Shown here piece by piece: positions 10,674 through 32,690 of a stretch of DNA of 33,344 bases. Origin of the DNA: Clostridiales bacterium (GTDB lineage Bacteria > Bacillota > Clostridia > Christensenellales > CAG-138); NCBI GenBank assembly GCA_013824375.1, contig PNNR01000012.1:1-33344 (forward strand). The letters run 5' to 3'. Under the pieces are notes generated by a model, which ran no database searches, had not been told where the DNA came from, and saw nothing but the letters and a program-made list of their open reading frames with translations. Within the stretch, counting starts at the first letter, position 1, and each line of letters opens with the position of its first letter. Position numbers and translations under genes: made by a program.

Positions 10674-11300
10674 ATGCAGGCATGGCTGCCTATCGTATAT
10701 GGCACAATCTCGGGAGGGTTACTAGCGGTTCTGGCGCGGCTTCTCTGCGGGGTATTACTAAAAAATCGCGGCCTTGCCCCTAACATTGGGCGCAAACACT
10801 TTTGGATTATGCTTGCGAGCATGGCGCTGGTTGGCGGTATCATCGGCTGGCGGGCGGGGGTCTCGTTTCAGGGACTGTACCTGCTGCTCATCCTTCTCGT
10901 TGCGGCCTGCGCGTTTTATATCGACGCGAAGAACCGCGTGATCCCAAACGAGCTGGTGCTCTCGATCCTCATTTTATCAGCGGTGTTCGGGATCACAGGC
11001 GCGATCCGTTTTCAAATCTGGCACTCCCTCTTGGGGCTCGTTGTGTGTTTCATCATCTTCTTTCTGCCCGGTCTGTTTGGAAAACAGGTCGGTGCGGGAG
11101 ATGTCAAGCTCGCCGCCGCCATGGGGTTTGCGTTGGGGCTGACCGGCAGCCTGTACGCGATCGCGTGCATGGGTGCGCTGGTACTCATATATACCTTCCT
11201 CGATAATCGCCTGCCGCTCGCGGAGCGGCTCAAGACAATGATCCCTATGGGACCGTTTCTTGCGATTGGATTGGTCGCGGTGTCGATCATCCTTTCATAG
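10674..11300 (+). CDS. Prepilin peptidase, A24 family (CpaA/TadV-like)
   Basis: Polytopic; FYIDAKNRVIPNELVL and GAGDVKLAAAMGFALG aspartyl protease motifs. Confidence 0.92.
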   Translation: MQAWLPIVYGTISGGLLAVLARLLCGVLLKNRGLAPNIGRKHFWIMLASMALVGGIIGWRAGVSFQGLYLLLILLVAACAFYIDAKNRVIPNELVLSILILSAVFGITGAIRFQIWHSLLGLVVCFIIFFLPGLFGKQVGAGDVKLAAAMGFALGLTGSLYAIACMGALVLIYTFLDNRLPLAERLKTMIPMGPFLAIGLVAVSIILS

Positions 11301-11504
11301 CGGCTTCCCGGTTATGCTGTTAAGCCAGCCAAGACTGGAGTTGTACCCGCAAAACACCTTGAAAACCGCGATGTGATCAAATCTGTGAAGATCATATCGG
11401 ATGAATTTCGCTACTTGGCTCAAATGTCAGAACGGTCTGCATCCTCTGATAGAACGTTCGGCGTCAAGTTCGCGAAGAATCTCATGGAAAGGAGGATATT
11501 ATCA

Positions 11505-11657
11505 ATGAAAAAGTTTTTCATGAATGAAGAAGGCCAGGGCATGGTGGAATACGGCCTCATCATCGCGCTCGTCGCGGTCGTCGTGATTGCGGCCATCGCG
11601 CTGCTCGGCAACGGCGTGAGCAACACCTTTAACACGATCACTAACAAACTGGGCTAA
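11505..11657 (+). CDS. Flp/Fap-type pilin, first copy
   Basis: MKKFFMNEEGQGMVEYGLIIALVAVVVIAAIALLGNGVSNTFNTITNKLG: Flp G/XXXXEY processing motif; AAAGGAGG RBS upstream; start trimmed from 11373. Confidence 0.92.
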   Translation: MKKFFMNEEGQGMVEYGLIIALVAVVVIAAIALLGNGVSNTFNTITNKLG

Positions 11658-11696
11658 GGAAGCGCATCGATACTCAAGAGAAGAGGATGCAGTAAG

Positions 11697-11846
11697 ATGG
11701 TATTTTTCTGTTTAAATGAAGAAGGTCAAGGGCTTGTCGAGTACAGCCTGATCATTTTGCTTGTCGCGTTTGCCGTCATCGGCGCGCTGACGCTGCTCGG
11801 ATCAAACGTCACCGCATTTTTTAGGAATTTTGCGAATAATTTCTAA
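11697..11846 (+). CDS. Flp/Fap-type pilin, second copy (49 aa; absent from supplied ORF track)
   Basis: Manual translation MVFFCLNEEGQGLVEYSLIILLVAFAVIGALTLLGSNVTAFFRNFANNF*; same EEGQGxVEYxLI motif; AAGAGGA upstream of ATG. Confidence 0.88.
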   Translation: MVFFCLNEEGQGLVEYSLIILLVAFAVIGALTLLGSNVTAFFRNFANNF

Positions 11847-12000
11847 TATGCGAAAGCGTGATTCGCGCAACGTTGCAGACAGCATGGTGGAAAGGCGTAT
11901 TTGGCGTCGTTGTTTCTTTCGTTAATCGAAGGTGTGATTCCATCGGATTGTATTTTTTCTCTGAGTGAGAGGATTCCGAAAACTGACCCTGTTTGAACTG

Positions 12001-12096
12001 ACGCAAAGGCCAGCTGACCGCTTGGTTTTGCGTACAGATCGGAGACAGGATTTCCGGAATGAGAACGACCATTTTATTAGGGCGTTCTCATTCCGG
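12001..12096 (+). other. Tandem hairpins in the pilin-tadE intergenic region
   Basis: ACGCAAAGGCCA...TGGTTTTGCGT (12001-12033, imperfect) followed by a perfect 14-bp inverted repeat CCGGAATGAGAACG (12054-12067) / CGTTCTCATTCCGG (12083-12096), 15-nt loop. Confidence 0.6.
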
Positions 12097-12217
12097 TACT
12101 CATTCGTTTTGGCATCTTCGGTATCTCTGACGCTGTGGTCTAGTCTGCAGCGCGAGAGATGCGGATGATGAAGCATCAACACCTTAACGCCAACGATTTA
12201 AAAAGGAGGGAGAAGCC

Positions 12218-12649
12218 GTGAAGAAGATTCTATTGAAACGGAAACTGACACGAAAACGCCGCGAAGGCGGGCAGTCTGCGGTTGAGCTGGCGTTGACGCT
12301 CCCTCTGCTGCTGCTTCTGATTTTCGGCATGTTGGAAATGGGATGGGTTGCCTCCACAAAACTTTTACTGGATAATGTCACGCGGGAAGGCGTCCGCTCC
12401 GGCATCATCGCGACCAGCACTTCTGCAAATACGGCGGATGTGATTGAGCGCATCAACGGTATGAAACCAGATTATCTTCCGGGCACATTCTCAGTAACGG
12501 TCACTTATTCGACCCCTTCCAGCTTTCGCGACGGAGACATCACAGTTGTGACGACATATAATCTCGCACCGCTAACGCCGCTGACAGGATTTTTGACGGA
12601 AGACGGTACATTCCATCTGCGCTCGGAATGTACGATGAAGATGAGTTAG
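12218..12649 (+). CDS. TadE-like pseudopilin/pilus assembly protein
   Basis: RREGGQSAVELALTLPLLLLLIFGMLEMGWVASTKLLLDNVTREGVRSG is a TadE-like N-terminus. Confidence 0.88.
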   Translation: MKKILLKRKLTRKRREGGQSAVELALTLPLLLLLIFGMLEMGWVASTKLLLDNVTREGVRSGIIATSTSANTADVIERINGMKPDYLPGTFSVTVTYSTPSSFRDGDITVVTTYNLAPLTPLTGFLTEDGTFHLRSECTMKMS

Positions 12650-12681
12650 CGCAGAGCCGGAAACTCTCGCAAAGGGAAGAC

Positions 12682-12893
12682 AAAGAGTGCTAAAGAAAAG
12701 AGTGCTAAAGAAAAGAGTGCTATAGAAAAGAGTGCTAAAGAAAAGAGTGCTAAAGAAAAGAGTGCTATAGAAAAGAGTGCTAAAGAAAAGAGTGCTAAAG
12801 AAAAGAGTGCTATAGAAAAGAGCGCTATAGAAAGAGTGCTAAAGAAAAGAGTGCTATAGAAAAGAGTGCTAAAGAAAAGAGTGCTATAGAAAG
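12682..12893 (+). repeat. 15-bp minisatellite, about 13 full units plus flanking partial units
   Basis: Units A = AAAGAAAAGAGTGCT and B = ATAGAAAAGAGTGCT in the order AAB AAB AAB B' AB A(B partial); B' (12827-12840) is a 14-bp unit lacking one A; unit 9 has AGC instead of AGT. Confidence 0.97.
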
Positions 12894-12905
12894 GACGCGG
12901 TTGCA

Positions 12906-13925
12906 ATGAAAGCATGGTTGAAACAGCTTTTCCATTGGCTACGAAGCCAAGAATGCGGGCAATCACTGCTCATTATCATATTCGCAATAACAGCAATGAT
13001 CGGGGTTGCAGCGACAGTCACTGACCTGGGCGTAGCATATGTCAAGACGGCGCAAACGCAGACTGCGGTGGATGCAGCCGTACTTGCTTCCGGAATGACG
13101 CTGCCGGTCAAGAGTGGAGACACGGCCGCTATTGCAAAAACGACTGCGGTTGCAAAAGAGTACCTCGTGAAAAACGGCGTCACCGATACGACAAATACAA
13201 CCGTTACGCTGGGAGACCTCAGCGGAGGCAGTTACTATTCTGTCTATGTGAACCAACCCGCTTCTGCGGACACTGCGTTTGCTAAGATTTTCGGCATCAA
13301 TGTCATCACATTTCAGCGCGATGCCAAGGCAAAGGTTGTGACGTGCACCGCGCTTTCCGATCTGGTGCCGCTGTCGATCCGACAGAGCGTTTTAGAGCAA
13401 ATCATCGCGGAAGGCAAATCGATGCACGCCATTTTGAAATATGGATTGAAAGACGAAAACGTCGATAACGGCGCGTTCGGCGCGATCGATCTCGACGGTG
13501 TCAAGGGCGGCGGCGCAAACGACTATACCAACTGGCTTGCAAACGGTTATCAGGCGAAACTGACGGTCGGTACGGTGCTGCCCATCGAGCCGGGCAACAT
13601 GACCGGGCCTACGTATTCCGGCATCGTAGAACGCTACAACGCGTGCACGCATTACGCTTCCGAAGGCGGATGTAAAATCACGAAATATGTCGATGACTGC
13701 CCGCGCGTAATGAAGATTTCGGTCATCGAATATACGGACAGCTCCAACAAATACGTTCGCATCAAAGGGTTTGCGGCGTTCGTACTGGAAGACTATTCGA
13801 CCTATGCGGATAAGGGATGTGTCATTGGTTCTTATGCGAACATGGTCAACATTGGCTCGGCCGACGGGGATCTGACCGGAACCAAGCCAGCGTTCGGCGT
13901 TTACAGTCTGGTCTTGACGAACTAG
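12906..13925 (+). CDS. TadG-like pilus assembly protein (Tad N-terminal domain)
   Basis: CGQSLLIIIFAITAMIGVAATVTDLGVAYVKTAQTQTAVDAAVLASGMTLP matches the TadE/G-like N-terminal pattern; located in the tad operon. Confidence 0.87.
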   Translation: MKAWLKQLFHWLRSQECGQSLLIIIFAITAMIGVAATVTDLGVAYVKTAQTQTAVDAAVLASGMTLPVKSGDTAAIAKTTAVAKEYLVKNGVTDTTNTTVTLGDLSGGSYYSVYVNQPASADTAFAKIFGINVITFQRDAKAKVVTCTALSDLVPLSIRQSVLEQIIAEGKSMHAILKYGLKDENVDNGAFGAIDLDGVKGGGANDYTNWLANGYQAKLTVGTVLPIEPGNMTGPTYSGIVERYNACTHYASEGGCKITKYVDDCPRVMKISVIEYTDSSNKYVRIKGFAAFVLEDYSTYADKGCVIGSYANMVNIGSADGDLTGTKPAFGVYSLVLTN

Positions 13926-13936
13926 GATTTTTCATC

Positions 13937-13986
13937 GGGTTGGGAATGGATCGCTCGGAATAGAGGACGCACCCGTTTCCCAACCC
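13937..13986 (+). other. Intergenic stem-loop between tadG-like and cpaB-like genes
   Basis: GGGTTGGGAA (13937-13946) / TTCCCAACCC (13977-13986), perfect 10-bp stem with 30-nt loop, no T-tract. Confidence 0.6.
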
Positions 13987-14000
13987 AAATCGGAGGTTGC

Positions 14001-14777
14001 ATGAAAAAGGTTGTTCTCTTCGCGATCATCGCGGCGCTCTGTGCGGGCGCCTTGTTGTATTTTTATCTAGGCAAGCTGGAAGCGCAGAAAGAAGTCAAGA
14101 TCGAGTATGACAACGTACTGGTCGCCGCGGCGGATATTCCCGCGTTCACACCGATCTCAATCGAGATGCTGACATTCAAACAGATTCCGAAGGGGTATGC
14201 GCATCCGCAAGCCGCACATACGGTTGAGGAAGTGGTCGGCTATGTTACCGAGCGAGACGTTCTTGCAGGCGAAGAGATCATTCCGACAAAACTCAAACAG
14301 TTCGGCGAAACAGACAGCGGACTATCCTACGTCGTGCCGGAAGGCATGCGCGCGGTTACGGTTGCAGTTGACGAAATCTCTGGCGTCGCGGGATTTTTGA
14401 AGCGTGGGGACTATGTAGATGTGCTTTCCTATACGACAGCGTCCGTCCAAATCGAAAAGACGGAACAAGCGGCGGACGGAACTCAACTAACTACACAATC
14501 CACGCAGTCCGTCAACACGACGGTGGTCGCGGCGCAAAACGTTCAGGTTGTTGCGATCGGCATGTCGCTTTCTGCCGCATCTACCGATGCAGCGGATAAC
14601 GCGGCCGCGGTTGGTTATAATAGTGTAACGCTGTTGCTGACACCGGAAGACGCAATGCGTGTGATGCAAGGCTCAAAGAGCGGTATTATTATGCTGATCC
14701 TCCGTGCGTCGGGCGACCACGCTCCCAACACGGAAAAACCGATTGTGAACGACACGCTGTTGGAACAGGCAAAGTAA
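14001..14777 (+). CDS. cpaB: Flp pilus assembly protein CpaB/RcpC (SAF domain)
   Basis: N-terminal TM, VLVAAADIPAFTPISIEMLTFKQIPKGYAHPQAAHTVEEVVGYVTERDVLAGEEI...VPEGMRAVTVAVDEISGVAGFLKRGDYVDVL. Confidence 0.93.
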   Translation: MKKVVLFAIIAALCAGALLYFYLGKLEAQKEVKIEYDNVLVAAADIPAFTPISIEMLTFKQIPKGYAHPQAAHTVEEVVGYVTERDVLAGEEIIPTKLKQFGETDSGLSYVVPEGMRAVTVAVDEISGVAGFLKRGDYVDVLSYTTASVQIEKTEQAADGTQLTTQSTQSVNTTVVAAQNVQVVAIGMSLSAASTDAADNAAAVGYNSVTLLLTPEDAMRVMQGSKSGIIMLILRASGDHAPNTEKPIVNDTLLEQAK

Positions 14778-14785
14778 GGGATATC

Positions 14786-15913
14786 ATGGATAGTGTTCGC
14801 ATTATGCTGGCGGCGCATTCCGCCGACGACAGAAAACTGATTTCCAGTCTGCTGACGGATGAGGCGCTCCGCGTTGTCAGTTCGTTCCGACCGGATGCAG
14901 ACGGGCTGAGGAAAGCCTCTTCCCAACCCGCGGACGTGCTGCTGGTCGGCACGCGCGCGCAACCAACGCAGGAGCTTGATTTCGCGGAGCGAATGTTCAC
15001 CACACGAAGCGATATCACGATCATCCTGCTTGCGCCTGCGCTGGACAGCCGCACGCTCGCACGCGCGATGGAATGCGGTATCGCGCGCGTGATAGACATC
15101 AGCAGCAGCGAGCATGACATCTGTTCGCATATCACGGCGACGGCGCACCGCGACCTGAATCGCAGAAACACAACGCAAAAAATAGCAAGCTACGATTCCA
15201 AGATCGTCGCTTGTTATTCACCCAAGGGTGGTGTTGGCAAGACAACGCTTGCTGTCAACCTCGCCTATGCTCTCGCGACAATGAACAAGAAAGTAGCGCT
15301 GATCGACCTGAGCTTACAATTCGGGGAGGTTGGCGTTTTTTTGGATATCGCCAAGGGAGATACAATTGCGGATATGGTGGAGGAGCATTCTTTTGAGCTT
15401 TCCACCATCAAGAGCTATCTCATTCGGCATCAGAGCGGAATTCAAGTTATGCTCTCCAGCAGTTCGCCTGAGTATGCGGAACTGATTCAATCAACGCACA
15501 TCAACGCGATTCTATCCACGCTACGGACGGAGTTTGACTATGTCGTGGTTGACATGGGTGTCACCTTCGGGGACTGCGCGATTGCTGCGATGGAGACCGC
15601 GGATACAATATTGCTTGTAGTCAACGAGGATATCGCGTCACTTCACGACGCGAAGCGCAGTATAAAAGTTATGGAGGCGCTCAATCAACAGGATAAGCTC
15701 AGGATCGTTGTAAACAAGGATGGCATTTCAACCATCACGGTGAAAAATGTAGCGAACCTGCTGGAGGCGACACCCGTACTTGTGATTCCATTTGATCTAA
15801 AGGCGGCGATGCTTGCCGTTAACCGGGGAATTCCGATGCTCAGCTGTGCGCCAAATTCCAAGGCGAGCAAAGAAATTCGCGCCTTCGCGCAAGCCATGAT
15901 CCGGAGGATGTAA
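14786..15913 (+). CDS. CpaE/TadZ-like ParA-family ATPase with N-terminal (pseudo)receiver domain
   Basis: YSPKGGVGKTTLAVNLAYALATMNKKVALIDLSLQFGEVGVFL deviant Walker A MinD/ParA fold; position in tad operon. Confidence 0.92.
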   Translation: MDSVRIMLAAHSADDRKLISSLLTDEALRVVSSFRPDADGLRKASSQPADVLLVGTRAQPTQELDFAERMFTTRSDITIILLAPALDSRTLARAMECGIARVIDISSSEHDICSHITATAHRDLNRRNTTQKIASYDSKIVACYSPKGGVGKTTLAVNLAYALATMNKKVALIDLSLQFGEVGVFLDIAKGDTIADMVEEHSFELSTIKSYLIRHQSGIQVMLSSSSPEYAELIQSTHINAILSTLRTEFDYVVVDMGVTFGDCAIAAMETADTILLVVNEDIASLHDAKRSIKVMEALNQQDKLRIVVNKDGISTITVKNVANLLEATPVLVIPFDLKAAMLAVNRGIPMLSCAPNSKASKEIRAFAQAMIRRM

Positions 15914-15915
15914 GC

Positions 15916-17223
15916 ATGGGACTATTGGAGCGATTGGATAAAAAAACGCCTGCCATGCAAACCGGCGGATCGCAGGCAGAGGCGGACGAAAACGCCGCGC
16001 TGCGGGATAAGGTACATTATCAGGTTGTCGAAGCGCTTAACAAGCGCGACGAAAAGCACAGCGGCGGCACGAGCGAAGTGGATACACGCGCGATCATAGA
16101 AGCCGCTCTGGAGCAGCACGCTGCCACTATGGCACGGCCGGAGCGCAACCGAATCGCTATCGAGATTTACGATTCGATCCGCGGCCTGGGCCCGCTGGAA
16201 AAATTATTGGCCGACGAAACCGTCACCGAAATCATGGTCAACGGCGCGAAGCAGGTTTTCGTGGAACGCAAGGGCAAGTTATTGCAGAGCGACGTGACGT
16301 TTTATGACAACGAGCAACTGCTCAATGTCATCGACCGCATCGTCTCGCCGTTGGGAAGACACATAGACGAGGCAAACCCCATGGTAGACGCGCGTTTGCA
16401 AGATGGGTCGCGCGTCAATGCGGTCATCGCGCCGCTCTCGCTGAAAGGGCCGATTCTGACGATTCGAAAGTTTTCAAAAACCCCGTTGACCGTTCAGAAT
16501 CTGATCGATTTCGGGAGTTTAACGATCAAAATGGCGGCATTTCTCGAGGCTTGTGTCAAAGGCAGACTCAACGTTGTTGTCTCCGGTGGTACCGGCAGCG
16601 GAAAAACCACGTTGCTCAATGTGCTTTCCGCTTACATCCCGAATGACGAACGTATCGTCACTATCGAGGACGCGGCGGAAATCCAGCTCCAACAGCAGCA
16701 TGTGCTGACGCTGGAAGCCAGACCGGCAAACCTGGAAGGAACCGGACAGATCACCATTCGCGATCTCGTACGAAACGCGTTGCGTATGCGTCCTGATCGG
16801 ATCATCGTCGGTGAGGTTCGCGGCGGAGAAGCGCTGGACATGCTGCAGGCGATGAATACGGGCCATGACGGCTCGCTGACGACCGGCCACGCGAACTCAT
16901 CGCGCGATATGCTTTCACGTTTGGAGACTATGGTGCTCATGGCGGGCATGAACCTGCCGATTCCCGCGATTCGTCAACAGATCGCGTCCGCTATTGATAT
17001 CATCGTGCAGCAGTCGCGTATGCGCGACGGCAGCCGCAAGGTGATTGGCATCAGCGAGGTGCTCGGCATGGAAGGCGACATTATCGTCATGCAGGAAATA
17101 TTCACCTACGATTATGGCGACGGGCGCACACCCGGACGCTTCCGCGCGACCGGAATCAAGCCGCGTTGCGCAGATAAACTCGTTGCGGCAGGCGCAGGCC
17201 TTAAAGACGAATGGTTCCAGTAA
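15916..17223 (+). CDS. tadA: Tad secretion ATPase TadA/CpaF
   Basis: [99 protein letters not shown]. Confidence 0.97.
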
Positions 17224-17280
17224 ACTTGAAGTGATGGGACAGACTACAACAATGAACGGATCGGAAAGGAGCTGGAGAAT

Positions 17281-18210
17281 ATGATTCGAGCACTGGTCGT
17301 CGGGACGGTTGTGATCGCGCTATATTTCTTCTTCTATCTGATCGCTGTTGCGCGGACGAAAAATAAGCGCAAGATGGACGAACGAGTTCGCTTGTTCTTT
17401 GATCTCGGTTCGGAAGGAAACACCAGCCGCCGCGCGAACAAGGAAAGAAACAAAAAGAATCCGCTACGATTGGATCAAATCGCAGACGAGCTCTATGTCG
17501 CCGGCATTGCCTTGCGCGCGGAAGAGTTCATCACGCTTTGGATCATGACTGGCGGCGTAATCCCCGCTATCGCGCTGTTCCTAGGCGCACCGCTCACGGT
17601 TTGTATCGCATTAATTATCGTCGGCGCAGCGTTGCCAATTGTTCTTGTTGCGATCAAAAGGAACAAACGTCTTGCGTTACTTGGCACACAGCTGTCAGAT
17701 GCGTTTTCGATCATCTGCAACGCACTTCGTGTAGGCCAGTCGTTTCAATCTGCGATGAAAAACGTTGCAGACGAGATGGAAGAACCCATCTCTCGCGAGT
17801 TCATGCGTGTCTACCGTGAAACGCAATACGGCATGCCACTCGAGACTAGCCTAGGCCGTCTCGTGAGTCGCACGAAAAATTCGGATTTGGAGCTGATGTG
17901 CTCCGCCGTCATCATTCAGCGGCAGATTGGCGGAAACCTCGCGATCATTCTGCAAAACATTTCTGACACGATCAATCAGCGCATACGTCTGCGCGGAGAG
18001 ATACGCACTATGACTTCTGCGGGGCGCATGAGCGGTTATATCATTGGTGCGCTGCCGGTGTTCATCATATTGCTGCTGATGTTCATCAACCCCGGTTATA
18101 TCAACATGTTTTTTATAACGAGCACGGGTCGGATCATGCTGCTCGTCAGTGTGGTGTTGGAGACCATCGGTTTCTTGATTGTTAGAAAAATTGTCAATAT
18201 TAAAATGTAG
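17281..18210 (+). CDS. tadB: Tad inner-membrane platform protein TadB (T2SF domain)
   Basis: T2SSF domain pattern (LPDAFSIICNALRVGQSF-like LSDAFSIICNALRVGQSFQSAMKNVADEMEEPISREF...), C-terminal TMs; directly after tadA. Confidence 0.92.
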   Translation: MIRALVVGTVVIALYFFFYLIAVARTKNKRKMDERVRLFFDLGSEGNTSRRANKERNKKNPLRLDQIADELYVAGIALRAEEFITLWIMTGGVIPAIALFLGAPLTVCIALIIVGAALPIVLVAIKRNKRLALLGTQLSDAFSIICNALRVGQSFQSAMKNVADEMEEPISREFMRVYRETQYGMPLETSLGRLVSRTKNSDLELMCSAVIIQRQIGGNLAIILQNISDTINQRIRLRGEIRTMTSAGRMSGYIIGALPVFIILLLMFINPGYINMFFITSTGRIMLLVSVVLETIGFLIVRKIVNIKM

Positions 18211-18225
18211 GGAGGAGGATGCCGG

Positions 18226-19152
18226 TTGCGTCTAGCTGTGCTGTTTTTTACAATTTCGGTGTTCCTCACCCTGGTCGCACTGCTGCAGAATTTCGGCATG
18301 AAAAGCGACCAGATGCGGAAGCGCTTCTCGCAGGTGATCGAAACAGAGCGCACCTACAGCGATGAAGAACTCAAGAAATCTTTTTCAGAGCGTGTGATCA
18401 AACCTATGATCAAGCGCATTTCAGATGGCGTAAAACGATCCGCGGGAAACAGAAAGCCTGTCAGCCAGAGCAAAGCTACCTTAAAGCTGGAAAAACAACT
18501 CAAAGCATCCGGGCTCGCACTGTCGCTGCAGGAGTATAGCTTCATAAAAACTACGCTGATCCTTTTATTCTTTCTGTCCGGCATTGTGTTGTTTTTATTA
18601 CTGCCGGTTCACATGCTTTTGCGAGTGGTCATCATGATGGTGATGTGGAACATACCGATGTTTGGAACCGCCAGATTTCTTACGTCTCGCGTGAAGAAAC
18701 GAAAAGACGCGATTCTGCGCGAACTGCCGGAGACGATGGACGTTCTTGTTGTGAGCGTCGAGGCGGGTCTCGGGCTTGACGCAGCGATCGTAAGACAATA
18801 TGCTAAGAATAAAAATGTCGTTCTCACAGAGCTGAACAACGCCATCCGCGAGGTGCAGATGGGCGTTCCGCGCAGAACGGCGCTGAAAGAGATGGCGGAT
18901 CGCTGTGATGTCAAAGAGTTGACTGTGTTTATTACTGCGCTTTTGCAGGCGGATCAGCTTGGCGTTCCGATCAAGAGCGTACTGGATACACAGGCGGATC
19001 GTCTCCGCGTCGAGCGTAAGCAGAGAATTCAGGCGCAGGCAGCAAAAGCACCGATTAAAATTATGCTGCCGACGGTCGGCTTCATATTTCCGGTGATCTT
19101 CATCATTCTCTTAGGCCCTGCGGCCGTGAGTATGGTTTCAACGTTGCGGTAA
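18226..19152 (+). CDS. tadC: Tad inner-membrane platform protein TadC (T2SF domain); TTG start
   Basis: LPETMDVLVVSVEAGLGLDAAIVRQYAKNKNVVLTELNNAIREVQMGVPRRTALKEMADRCDVKELTVFITALLQADQLGVPI; GGAGGAGG RBS. Confidence 0.93.
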   Translation: MRLAVLFFTISVFLTLVALLQNFGMKSDQMRKRFSQVIETERTYSDEELKKSFSERVIKPMIKRISDGVKRSAGNRKPVSQSKATLKLEKQLKASGLALSLQEYSFIKTTLILLFFLSGIVLFLLLPVHMLLRVVIMMVMWNIPMFGTARFLTSRVKKRKDAILRELPETMDVLVVSVEAGLGLDAAIVRQYAKNKNVVLTELNNAIREVQMGVPRRTALKEMADRCDVKELTVFITALLQADQLGVPIKSVLDTQADRLRVERKQRIQAQAAKAPIKIMLPTVGFIFPVIFIILLGPAAVSMVSTLR

Positions 19153-27516: not shown

Positions 27517-28614
27517 ATGGATCAGCCAAGATACCTGATTCTGGAGAACGGACAGGTGTTTCGCGGGCGACCGTTTGGGGCCACGGGCCAGGTGATCGCT
27601 GAAATTGTGTTTACGACGGCTATGACCGGATATCTCGAGACATTGACCGATCCTAGCTATTACGGTCAGATGGTGGTGCAGGCGTTCCCGCTGATCGGTA
27701 ATTATGGAGTGATCCCCGCTGACTTTGAGGCGGAGAACCCCGCGTTGCAAGCGTATATCGTGCGTTCCTGGTGTCAAGTGCCTTCAAACTTTCGTAGTGT
27801 TGAAGACCTTGACACTTTTTTATTGTCGAGGGGAATCGTAGGACTATGGGACATCGACACGCGCGCGCTGGTCAAGATCATCCGCGAGCACGGCGTGATG
27901 AACGCGCTGATCACGGACGACCCGAATCCGGATGCGGAGACGCTGAATCAGCTCCGCAGCTATCGCCTCACGGGCGCTGTGTCGGCGGTCAGCGGGAAAG
28001 ACGCGGCGAGCCTGCGCGCGGATGCCGCTAAGCGGCATGTCGTACTCTGGGACTTCGGCGCGAAGCGAAACATCGCGCGGGAGCTTGTCAAGCGCGGGTG
28101 CGACGTGACCATCCTGCCCGCGCACGCAACCGCAGAGGAGATACTCGCGCACAAGCCGGACGGCGTTATGCTCTCCAACGGCCCGGGCGATCCTGTGGAG
28201 AACACCGCGGTGATCCGCGAACTCGCCTTGCTCTGCGCGGCGAATGTACCGATCTTTGGCATCTGCCTGGGGCACCAGCTGCTCGCGCTCGCGCGCGGCG
28301 GCGAGACGATGAAGCTCAAATACGGTCACCGCGGCGCGAACCAGCCGGTACAGGAGATCGCGAGCAAAAAGGTATACATCACAAGCCAGAACCACGGCTA
28401 CGCGGTTAAGACGGGGAGTGCCCTGCCGGAGAACGCGCGCATGAGCTTTGTCAATCTCAACGACGGCACCTGCGAGGGCATGGAATACCTCGATATCCCC
28501 GCGTTCTCGGTGCAGTTTCATCCCGAAGCGTGCGCGGGCCCGCTGGACACGCGCTATCTCGATCGGTTCATCGCGCGCATGGACGGCGCGGGTGCTTCGC
28601 AACAGATCGGTTAA
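27517..28614 (+). CDS. carA: Carbamoyl-phosphate synthase small (glutaminase) subunit
   Basis: YLILENGQVFRGRPFGATGQVIAEIVFTTAMTGYLETLTDPSYYGQMV; class I GATase triad FGICLGHQLLALA and FHPEACAGP. Confidence 0.97.
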   Translation: MDQPRYLILENGQVFRGRPFGATGQVIAEIVFTTAMTGYLETLTDPSYYGQMVVQAFPLIGNYGVIPADFEAENPALQAYIVRSWCQVPSNFRSVEDLDTFLLSRGIVGLWDIDTRALVKIIREHGVMNALITDDPNPDAETLNQLRSYRLTGAVSAVSGKDAASLRADAAKRHVVLWDFGAKRNIARELVKRGCDVTILPAHATAEEILAHKPDGVMLSNGPGDPVENTAVIRELALLCAANVPIFGICLGHQLLALARGGETMKLKYGHRGANQPVQEIASKKVYITSQNHGYAVKTGSALPENARMSFVNLNDGTCEGMEYLDIPAFSVQFHPEACAGPLDTRYLDRFIARMDGAGASQQIG

Positions 28615-28643: not shown

Positions 28644-31600
28644 ATGCCACTGGATCAACAGATCAAGCGCGTGATGGTCATCGGTTCCGGTCCCATCGTG
28701 ATCGGACAGGCGGCGGAGTTTGACTACGCGGGCACGCAAGCCTGCCGTGCGCTGCGCGAGGAAGGGCTGGAGGTCATCCTCGTCAACTCCAACCCCGCGA
28801 CGATCATGACCGACCGCGCGATGGCGGATCACATCTACATCGAGCCGCTGACGCTGACCACACTCAAGCGCATCATTGAAAAGGAAAAGCCGGACAGCCT
28901 CCTCTCCACCCTCGGCGGGCAGACGGGGCTGACACTCTCAATGCAGCTCGCCAAGGACGGCTTTTTGCAGGAGCACGGGGTAAAACTGCTCGGCGCAAAC
29001 CCGGTGACCATCGCCAAGGCGGAGGATCGCCAGCTCTTCAAGGACGCGATGATCGAGATCGGGCAGCCCGTGATTCCCTCGCTTGTGGTGACGGAGCTGA
29101 CCTCCGCGCTCGCGTTCGCGGAAGAGATCGGCTATCCGGTCATCGTGCGTCCGGCGTTCACGCTCGGAGGCAGCGGCGGCGGCATCGCGGGGACACGCGA
29201 GGAGCTGACCGAGATCGCGACAAACGGCATCCGCATGTCGCCCATCCACCAGATTCTGGTGGAAAAATGTATCTCCGGCTGGAAGGAGATCGAGTTCGAG
29301 GGCATGCGGGACAAGAACGGCAACGTGATTACGATCTGCAGCATGGAAAACTTCGATCCCGTCGGCGTGCACACGGGCGATAGCATCGTGATCGCGCCCG
29401 CGGTGACGCTCTCCGACCGCGAATATCAGATGCTGCGCACGGCGACGCGGGACATCATCGACACGCTCGGCATCGAGGGTGGATGCAACTGCCAGTTTGC
29501 GCTGCATCCCACGAGCTTTGACTACGCGGTGATCGAGGTCAACCCGCGCGTAAGCCGCTCCTCTGCGCTGGCCTCCAAGGCGACGGGCTACCCCATCGCA
29601 AAGGTCGCAACCAAGATCGCGATCGGATACACGCTCGACGAGATTCAAAACGCGGTCACGGGCAACACATCCGCGTGCTTCGAGCCCGCGTTGGATTATG
29701 TCGCGGTCAAGCTGCCCAAGTGGCCGTTTGACAAGTTTGTCTACGGCAAGCGCACGCTCGGCACGCAGATGAAGGCGACAGGCGAGGTCATGGCGATCGG
29801 GCCTACGTTTGAGCAGGCGATCATGAAGGCGGTGCGCGGCGCGGAGATTTCGCAGGACAGCCTGAACATGGCGAAGCTTGCGGACATTCCGACGGAACAG
29901 ATTCGCGAGCGGCTCCACAACTGCGACGACGAGCGGCTGTTTGTGGTGTTTGAATCCCTCAAGCGCGGGATTTCAATGGATGAAATTCACCAGATAACGA
30001 TGATCGACATCTGGTTCCTCGCAAAACTCAAGCATCTTGCGGAGTATGAGAAGAGCATCGCGGCATCGGGCCTTTCCGACGAAGCGTATCTCGAAGGCAA
30101 GAAGCTCGGCTACCCCGACCGCGTGCTCGCGCGTATCAGCGGGCAGCCGGTTCGGGAACACCTCTACGCGGGCTATCGTATGGTCGATACCTGCGCGGCG
30201 GAGTTTGAGGCGCAGACGCCGTACTTCTACGCGGATTATGCCTGTGAAGTAAACGAGGCGCAAACCTTCCTGCAAAAGCACGACACGGGAAAACGCCGCG
30301 TGATCGTGTTCGGCTCGGGACCTATCCGCATCGGCCAGGGTATCGAGTTTGACTATGCTTCCGTCCATTGCGTCTGGGCGCTCAAGCAGGCGGGGTTTGA
30401 GGTGGTCATCGTCAACAACAACCCCGAGACGGTCTCCACGGACTTTGACACGGCGGATCGGCTCTACTTTGAGCCGCTGTTGCCGGAGGATGTGATGAAC
30501 GTCATCCACACCGAGCAGCCCTACGGCGTGGTGGTCGCGTTCGGCGGACAGACGGCGATCAAGCTCACGCGGTATCTTTCCGAACAGGGCGTACGCATCC
30601 TCGGCACCCCCGCGGACAGCATCGACGCCGCGGAGGATCGAGAGCGGTTCGATGCGCTCCTGGAGCAGCTCTCCATCAAGCGCCCGCTCGGCAAAACGGT
30701 CAAGACCGAGGAACAGGCGCTGGAAGCGGCAAATTCGCTGGGCTATCCCGTGCTGATTCGACCCAGCTATGTGCTCGGCGGGCAAAACATGATCATCGCG
30801 TTCTCGGATGACGACGTGCGCGAATATATGGGAATCATCCTTAGAAAGGGCATCGACAACCCGATCTTGATCGACCAGTACCTGATGGGTACCGAGATCG
30901 AGGTGGACGCGATCTGCGATGGTCAGGATATCCTGATCCCCGGTATCATGGAGCACATCGAGCGCGCGGGTGTGCATTCCGGCGACTCCATCGCGGTCTA
31001 TCCCGCGTGGAATCTCAACGGCCCGCTGATTGAGCGGGTAGTGGAGTATTCCAGAAAGCTTGCGCTCGCGCTTCGCACGCGGGGGCTCATCAACATCCAA
31101 TACGTGATCTACGAAAACGAAATCTATGTCATCGAGGTCAATCCGCGTTCTTCACGAACGGTGCCGTACATCAGCAAGGTCACTGGCGTGCCGATGGTCG
31201 ATCTCGCCACGCGCGCCATGCTGGGCGATTCGCTCAGCGAGATGGGCTTTGGCACGGGCTTATACAAAACGCCGCCCTACGTCGCGGTCAAAGTGCCCGT
31301 GTTCTCGTTTGAAAAGCTGGCGGACGTCGATATCCTGCTCGACCCGGAGATGAAATCCACGGGAGAAGTGCTCGGCATCGGCAAAACGCGGGAGGAGGCG
31401 CTCTACAAAGGCCTCGTCGCCGCGGGTTATAAGATGAAGCGGCGCGGAGGCCTACTCGTCACCGTGCGGGATCAGGACAAGGCGGATATGACCGACGCTG
31501 TGCGGAAGTTTTATGAGATGGGCTTTGCGCTCTATGCGACGAGAGGTACGGCAGCGGTGCTGGAACAGGCGCAGATGAAGGTACAGGTGGTCGAAAAACT

Positions 31601-32690
31601 CCACAAATCGCAGGGCGACAACATACTAACATTGATCGAGAGCGGAAAGATCGATTACATTCTTTCGACTTCTTCCAAAGGTCGGCTGCCCTCGCGGGAC
31701 AGCGTGAAGATCAGAAGAAAAGCCATCGAGCGCGCGGTACCGTGCATCACATCTGTGGACACGGCGAATGCCCTCGCGGACAGCCTCAGAAGCCGCTACT
31801 CCCAACACACCACGGAACTTGTTGACATCAATCACATGCGCACGGAGAAGATGCGCCTGCCGTTTACCAAAATGAACGGCACGAGCAACGACTATATCTA
31901 CTTCGACTGCATGAAGCAGCCGATCATAGCACCCGAATCGTTGAGCGTCTATCTCTCGGAGGAGCATGCGGGCATCGGCGGCGATGGCATCATCCTCATT
32001 GAGCCGTCCGACTGCGCGAATGCTTCCATGCGCATCTTCAACCGCGACGGCAGCGAAGGAAAGATGTGCGGCAACGGCATCCGCTGCGTGGGCAAATACC
32101 TCTACGACAACGGCATGACAGACCGAACAGAGCTTACGGTTGAGACAAAGAGCGGGATCAAGCACCTCAAGCTCTATGTGCGCGGCGGCAAGGTGAAGTC
32201 CGTCACCGTGGATATGGGCAGTGCGGAGCTGAAGCCGGAATTGATTCCCGTGCTGCTGGAGGGGGACAAGATCGTCTCCCGTCCGGTCGAGTTTGACAAG
32301 CAGACCTACAGCATCACCTGCGTCTCGATGGGCAATCCGCACTGCGTGGTGTTCTGCGACTATCCCGATCTGCTGCCGATTGAGAAGATAGGACCCTTGA
32401 TCGAGACCGCTGCGATCTTTCCGGATCGCGTGAACGTCGAGTTCGTGCAGGTGCTGGATCATCATACGCTCAAGATGCGCGTCTGGGAACGCGGCAGCGG
32501 CGAGACGCTCGCCTGCGGCACGGGCGCGTGCGCCGCGGTGGTTGCCGCCACCGAAAACGGCTTTTGCACAAAAGGCGAGGACATCACCGTGCGGCTGCGC
32601 GGCGGTGACCTGCTGGTACGCTATACCGACGAAACGGTGTGGATGACCGGTGACGCGAAGAAAAACTTCGAAGGCGTCGTCGAACTGTAA
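28644..32690 (+). CDS. carB: Carbamoyl-phosphate synthase large subunit fused in frame to diaminopimelate epimerase (CarB-DapF)
   Basis: CarB: two ATP-grasp halves (VMVIGSGPIVIGQAAEFDYAGTQACRAL; VIVFGSGPIRIGQGIEFDYASVHCVWAL) and MGS-like domain to about 31835; DapF: LPFTKMNGTSNDYIYFD, CGNGIRCVGKYLYD, MGNPHCVVFC, LACGTGACAAVVAA; no stop codon between. Confidence 0.95.
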   Translation: MPLDQQIKRVMVIGSGPIVIGQAAEFDYAGTQACRALREEGLEVILVNSNPATIMTDRAMADHIYIEPLTLTTLKRIIEKEKPDSLLSTLGGQTGLTLSMQLAKDGFLQEHGVKLLGANPVTIAKAEDRQLFKDAMIEIGQPVIPSLVVTELTSALAFAEEIGYPVIVRPAFTLGGSGGGIAGTREELTEIATNGIRMSPIHQILVEKCISGWKEIEFEGMRDKNGNVITICSMENFDPVGVHTGDSIVIAPAVTLSDREYQMLRTATRDIIDTLGIEGGCNCQFALHPTSFDYAVIEVNPRVSRSSALASKATGYPIAKVATKIAIGYTLDEIQNAVTGNTSACFEPALDYVAVKLPKWPFDKFVYGKRTLGTQMKATGEVMAIGPTFEQAIMKAVRGAEISQDSLNMAKLADIPTEQIRERLHNCDDERLFVVFESLKRGISMDEIHQITMIDIWFLAKLKHLAEYEKSIAASGLSDEAYLEGKKLGYPDRVLARISGQPVREHLYAGYRMVDTCAAEFEAQTPYFYADYACEVNEAQTFLQKHDTGKRRVIVFGSGPIRIGQGIEFDYASVHCVWALKQAGFEVVIVNNNPETVSTDFDTADRLYFEPLLPEDVMNVIHTEQPYGVVVAFGGQTAIKLTRYLSEQGVRILGTPADSIDAAEDRERFDALLEQLSIKRPLGKTVKTEEQALEAANSLGYPVLIRPSYVLGGQNMIIAFSDDDVREYMGIILRKGIDNPILIDQYLMGTEIEVDAICDGQDILIPGIMEHIERAGVHSGDSIAVYPAWNLNGPLIERVVEYSRKLALALRTRGLINIQYVIYENEIYVIEVNPRSSRTVPYISKVTGVPMVDLATRAMLGDSLSEMGFGTGLYKTPPYVAVKVPVFSFEKLADVDILLDPEMKSTGEVLGIGKTREEALYKGLVAAGYKMKRRGGLLVTVRDQDKADMTDAVRKFYEMGFALYATRGTAAVLEQAQMKVQVVEKLHKSQGDNILTLIESGKIDYILSTSSKGRLPSRDSVKIRRKAIERAVPCITSVDTANALADSLRSRYSQHTTELVDINHMRTEKMRLPFTKMNGTSNDYIYFDCMKQPIIAPESLSVYLSEEHAGIGGDGIILIEPSDCANASMRIFNRDGSEGKMCGNGIRCVGKYLYDNGMTDRTELTVETKSGIKHLKLYVRGGKVKSVTVDMGSAELKPELIPVLLEGDKIVSRPVEFDKQTYSITCVSMGNPHCVVFCDYPDLLPIEKIGPLIETAAIFPDRVNVEFVQVLDHHTLKMRVWERGSGETLACGTGACAAVVAATENGFCTKGEDITVRLRGGDLLVRYTDETVWMTGDAKKNFEGVVEL

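Follow-up and report, generated by a model that had tools for sequence, protein, structure and literature searches.

A CarB-DapF gene fusion of single origin across many Bacillota families, with recurrent loss of a catalytic cysteine from its DapF domain

The gene at positions 28644 to 32690 of the window, the whole stretch of 33,344 nucleotides from a gut-type Clostridiales bacterium (contig PNNR01000012.1) analysed here, very probably encodes a bifunctional CarB-DapF protein that goes back to a single fusion event and whose DapF domain might in addition serve CPSase in a non-catalytic way. The fusion is not peculiar to the window genome: it is old, arose once and extends across many families.

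The gene was confirmed as one ORF of 1348 aa on the + strand, its coordinates, length and frame being exact. The NCBIfam CarB profiles NF003671 (1466 bits, curated cut-off 599) and TIGR01369 (1428 bits, cut-off 1027) covered residues 1-1052 of the product, and the DapF profile TIGR00652 covered residues 1074-1346 (275 bits, cut-off 114.65). Pfam placed the CPSase halves (D1/D2 twice), D3, an MGS domain at 949-1036 and two DAP_epimerase halves; CPSase and DapF domains were the only ones detected with NCBIfam and Pfam. The junction, ...TELVDINHM-RTEKMRLP-FTKMNG, is stop-free. These results bear out the preliminary description, which had claimed that the carB frame continues without a stop into a full DapF and that the fusion carries both catalytic-cysteine motifs of DapF. 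The features of the locus are as follows.

27517..28614, + strand: carA, CPSase small (glutaminase) subunit, 365 aa (Pfam CPSase_sm_chain and GATase)
28644..32690, + strand: carB::dapF fusion gene, 1348 aa (ORF, NCBIfam, Pfam)
28644..31817, + strand: CarB part, residues 1-1058, with two ATP-grasp synthetase halves and the MGS allosteric domain (NCBIfam, Pfam)
31488..31751, + strand: MGS-like allosteric domain of CarB, residues 949-1036 (Pfam PF02142)
31818..31862, + strand: 15-residue linker from the end of the CarB alignment to the first DapF residue, with conserved Arg/Lys (fused-gene alignment)
31863..32687, + strand: DapF part, residues 1074-1348, 275 aa (TIGR00652; structure comparison)
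32067..32069, + strand: codon for the first catalytic cysteine, Cys 1142 (DapF C69, equivalent to Haemophilus C73), kept in the window protein
32514..32516, + strand: codon for the second catalytic cysteine, Cys 1291 (DapF C218, equivalent to Haemophilus C217)

The gap between carA and the fusion gene is 29 bases, and carA lies directly upstream in 64 of the 70 fused genes surveyed. The fusion protein would be the CPSase large subunit, the partner of the adjacent carA product, with DapF carried on the allosteric end through a linker of fixed length. No dapL was seen beside the window gene. An ABC transporter gene lies downstream on the opposite strand, an arrangement conserved in two genomes of the same genus (G002 and G003).

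The distribution of the fusion was determined with the DapF part as query, counting frames of 1300 aa or more. A matching long frame was found in at least 130 of about 1,000 sampled genomes, belonging to some 36 families of the phylum. By sample, the counts were at least 82 genomes in 13 families for the order, at least 32 genomes in 16 families for the class and at least 14 genomes in 7 families for the phylum; 88 distinct fused sequences were read. Within the window genus, five of the seven other genomes (G001-G004 and G006) carried an intact fused frame of 1349-1376 aa over both domains. The gene of G005 has a single in-frame TAG inside CarB and that of G007 is interrupted where its contig stops; the junction is open in both. 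The sole CarB found in the window genome (G000) and in each of G001-G006 is the fused gene. Separate carB and dapF genes in close relatives, which the preliminary description had named as evidence against a fusion, are thus not the pattern of the same-genus genomes.

The window genome assembly is fragmentary (60% complete), which favors the view that two genes were joined by an assembly or sequencing artefact. The probability of this is negligible, since independent genomes from many families, and the cultured isolate Ruminococcus sp. FC2018 (L051), carry the same frame, and the fused genes share a constant linker and one CarB clade. The artefact was accordingly ruled out, and the CarB-DapF fusion is genuine, as first proposed. 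A mobile or plasmid origin was also rejected: no plasmid record covered 80% of the fusion, and the best plasmid match, from Subdoligranulum, was an unfused CarB.

A CarB tree (1056 columns) grouped all 66 fused CarBs, the window CarB among them, in one clade with SH-aLRT support of 100 and with none of the 24 unfused CarBs inside. The stretch that joins CarB residue 1058 to DapF was exactly 15 residues long in 69 of 70 fused genes, as it is in the window. The single clade and the constant linker indicate that the fusion arose once, and rule out multiple independent fusions. Trees of DapF only (275 columns) were less resolved and allowed a few splits; they are too short to decide the number of origins. 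When CarB was surveyed in 327 genomes of the order, fused-type CarB without DapF was confined, among the matches listed, to one genus (g81, family f4), where five genomes have it. These CarBs end soon after ...TELVDINHMR, and those that could be placed nest in the fused clade beside fused members of the same genus; the absence of DapF in g81 is a clean secondary loss. Row L233 of the tree used for this placement, a wrong ORF, was disregarded.

The linker also bears on whether the window organism makes separate CarB and DapF products by internal initiation at a linker ATG, in which case the fused frame would have little meaning. The window has an ATG at linker position -4 with GGAG upstream at short spacing, and 11 of the 70 fused genes together have 12 linker start codons preceded by an SD-like sequence. 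On the other hand, linker position -2, which corresponds to the start Met of stand-alone DapF (MKFTKM), has been replaced in 69 of 70 fused genes (Leu in the window; Met in one), and nine of the 70 linkers contain no ATG, GTG or TTG. Separate translation would require neither the conserved linker length nor the conserved linker positions R(-8), K/R(-5) and hydrophobic(-2) of the 70 genes, and we consider internal initiation highly improbable.

The gene orders of unfused and fused genomes suggest how the single fusion came about. Among unfused relatives dapF is near dapL in 59 of 91 loci, and several have the order glutamine synthetase-ANTAR regulator-dapF-pyrG-dapL (e.g. L161, L168, L107 and L060). 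Several fused genomes have GS-ANTAR-(amidotransferase)-carA-carB::dapF-pyrG-dapL (L078, L128, L148), and others GS-ANTAR-carA-carB::dapF-dapL (L145, L076) or a shorter version of either order. We infer from these orders that carA-carB was placed before dapF and that fusion followed: in one event in Clostridia, carA-carB would have come to lie directly upstream of dapF in the glutamine synthetase-ANTAR-dapF-pyrG-dapL operon, and the carB stop would then have been lost, giving the fused frame. A second context of fused genes is an arginine cluster, argB-argD-argF-carA-carB::dapF. The window locus has neither the GS-ANTAR nor the arginine-cluster context. In the trees the window genus falls among genomes from other families (G705, G860); for most other members of the window family no CarB reached the cut-off applied, and the native stand-alone dapF of the family forms a clade of its own. 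It is plausible that the window genus acquired the fusion horizontally.

Compared with E. coli CarB (1bxr), the fusion protein has the full CarB length, both ATP-grasp halves, the MGS domain and an adjacent carA, and differs by a C-terminal extension of 290 residues made up of the linker and a complete DapF. The 19 catalytic positions of E. coli CarB, over both ATP-grasp sites, are all kept in the window protein and in 75 of 75 fused CarBs, with D207 as E. The CarB half would thus form carbamoyl phosphate from glutamine, bicarbonate and two ATP. At position N1015 of the UMP/IMP site, 69 of 75 fused CarBs have S or Y and 19 of 24 unfused ones have N, a hint that effector control of the fused CarBs may be altered.

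The DapF part matched solved DapFs in structure comparison, best of all that of Bacillus anthracis (2otn, 44% identical), with which it shares the whole domain, both catalytic cysteines and the DAP-binding residues; it differs in that its N-terminus is joined to CarB with loss of its own start Met, and many fused homologues lack the first cysteine. An AlphaFold2 model of the MGS domain, linker and DapF (residues 936-1348) had a mean pLDDT of 91, about 57 in the linker, and a pTM of 0.67; its domains are reliable and the relative orientation of MGS and DapF is uncertain. All pocket residues for DAP binding (N, N, N, E, R) are present in the window DapF part, and comparison with G002 (dN 0.060, dS 0.60) indicates purifying selection. 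Decay of the DapF domain as a redundant copy was ruled out by this ratio and the conserved pocket. The CarB dN/dS of the pair L124-L129 was misframed and left out of account.

The DapF half would convert LL-DAP to meso-DAP, and both active sites of the window protein would work independently; catalysis by both halves is predicted from their residues. The window genus has a stand-alone dapF as well, of which the copy in the window genome (G000:C29:16636) is truncated where its contig ends; the fused epimerase is therefore not the only source in this genus. In at least 15 other genomes (G029, G101, G132, G063 and 11 more) a fused DapF with intact cysteines is the only DapF. Two of these, G132 and G063 (93-96% complete), have DapL and no Ddh, so by gene content the fused epimerase should be their only step from LL- to meso-DAP, consistent with predicted epimerase activity of the fused DapF.

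Of the 88 fused DapFs, 43 have Ala, Gly, Ser or Phe in place of the first catalytic cysteine, a loss that needs 10-14 independent changes on the tree. Both cysteines are present in 44, and one more has lost only the second; 91 of 91 stand-alone DapFs keep both. Selection on the Cys-less domains is purifying, at rates like those of intact ones (L135-L073, dN 0.089, dS 0.53). Each of the 22 Cys-less genomes checked has another candidate route to meso-DAP: 19 have another DapF (fragments only in G030), and Ddh was found in the remaining three (G515, G571, G010), where no DapL scored above the cut-off. By comparison, another DapF is present in four of 19 Cys-intact genomes, the window genus being counted once, which makes for a strong association (Fisher p = 3e-5 in a test that ignores kinship). 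Lineages with another route to meso-DAP have thus repeatedly lost the catalytic cysteine yet kept the domain, and the simplest reading of these sequences is that DapF serves the CPSase protein in some non-catalytic way and that catalysis was dropped where it could be spared. Ligand binding by the DAP pocket (DAP sensing), oligomerisation through the DapF dimer and stability are candidate roles. The second role is not universal, genus g81 having shed the DapF tail and kept CarB.

The retention of the Cys-less domains could also mean that they are a different, one-cysteine enzyme of the DapF/proline-racemase fold, such as a dehydratase or eliminase. The 3-hydroxyproline dehydratases of this fold use one Cys; the model resembles them at 12-14% identity in structure comparison, and the second Cys is kept in 37 of the 43 Cys-less copies. 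However, both cysteines are gone in the other six, the replacements of the first (A, G, S, F) vary in a way unlike a fixed new catalytic residue, and the residues for DAP recognition are unchanged, so that a new enzyme is unlikely.

A stronger alternative to the non-catalytic role, with a real chance of being correct although below an even one, is that the fusion is neutral and operon-derived: the two activities would share a transcript and a chain, and DapF would be kept for catalysis or for the stability of CarB, with no ligand-dependent cross-talk. In support of this, the genes were formerly operon neighbours, CarB and DapF have no shared metabolite, about half of the homologues keep the active sites of both halves, and one genus dropped DapF while CarB remained. 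Nevertheless, catalysis as the only reason for keeping DapF predicts decay of the Cys-less domains, and no decay was seen. A purely structural role needs no pocket, whereas the DAP-binding residues N60, N158, H160, N191, E209 and R210 are kept in 41-43 of the 43 Cys-less domains.

The conserved pocket also suggests, tentatively, a more specific form of the non-catalytic role, possible but rather doubtful, in which DapF is a DAP-sensing allosteric domain of CPSase that has become a pure sensor in many lineages through repeated Cys loss and does both jobs in the window protein. DAP or a related diamino acid in the pocket would then couple the supply of carbamoyl phosphate to the status of cell-wall and lysine precursors. 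CPSase is a textbook allosteric enzyme at the branch point of pyrimidines and arginine. An unrelated enzyme kept on its regulatory end across many families would predict that CPSase is tied by regulation to the synthesis of lysine and the cell wall.

No published description of a CarB-DapF fusion was found in the literature covered, which mostly excludes subscription journals, and automated database records may list the fusion. The parts are well known, and the conserved CarB::DapF family and its recurrent catalytic loss appear undescribed. The earlier statements that no functional reason for the pairing was known and that it could not be said whether the fusion was on record both hold. The recurrent Cys loss, seen in no stand-alone DapF and always alongside an alternative meso-DAP route in the genomes checked, amounts to a natural experiment in the change from enzyme to putative regulatory domain. 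Gene counts based on the presence of DapF will miscall meso-DAP synthesis in these genomes.

In CAD and other eukaryotic CPSase multienzymes a further enzyme is attached at the C-terminal regulatory end of CPSase, and the fusion likewise extends CPSase at this end. CAD joins consecutive steps of one pathway, whereas DapF works in another pathway and shares no substrate with CPSase; ATCase and dihydroorotase domains were not found in the window protein. A DapF with more than one role is represented by NF038284, the bifunctional DapF/glutamate racemase of Chlamydia, a case of single-domain promiscuity (PMC5885031) instead of a fusion as in CarB::DapF. The window protein scored 119 bits against this model, for which the cut-off is 350.

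Three loci (L056, L165 and L167) showed the gene order carA, stand-alone dapF, pyrG and dapL, with carB absent between carA and dapF. Since at least L165 falls within the DapF clade of the fusions, these carA-dapF loci suggest that carB was excised from the fused gene. The CarBs of five loci of genus g81 in family f4 (L232-L236) belong to the fused clade and their DapF tail is cleanly gone at the linker, the tail being retained in sister genomes of the genus. A single in-frame TAG was found within the CarB part of the fusion in a genome of the same genus as that of the window (L160, G005:C16:23364-26531), reflecting either a MAG error or a real break.

In two loci of family f198 (L223 and L244) both catalytic cysteines of the fused DapF were substituted (MSGN...AAGTS); the genomes carrying them are complete or near-complete and also contain a stand-alone dapF. 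The genome of the window has a second, stand-alone dapF as well (L189, G000:C29:16636-17328), truncated by the contig end. This gene shares about 45-48% identity with the fused DapF of the same genome and was placed in the native dapF clade of the window's family.

A fusion of typical Clostridia type was present in a record titled Treponema sp. MAG (L061, WQUW01000014.1), which probably reflects either a wrong label or a transfer of the gene. The carB-dapF junction region was also matched (65% over 86%) by a 4.8-kb 'Bacteriophage sp.' record from a phage collection (MT838905.1), probably a misfiled bacterial contig.

One CarB (L221, G446:C1:3045718-3048555) has 972 aa and its match ends at about residue 935-940; therefore the region of the allosteric MGS domain is apparently absent or replaced for the most part.

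The window also carries a pilus gene cluster:
10674-19152, Tad/Flp pilus genes (prepilin peptidase, TadE, RcpC/CpaB, ParA-like, T2SSE and two T2SSF)
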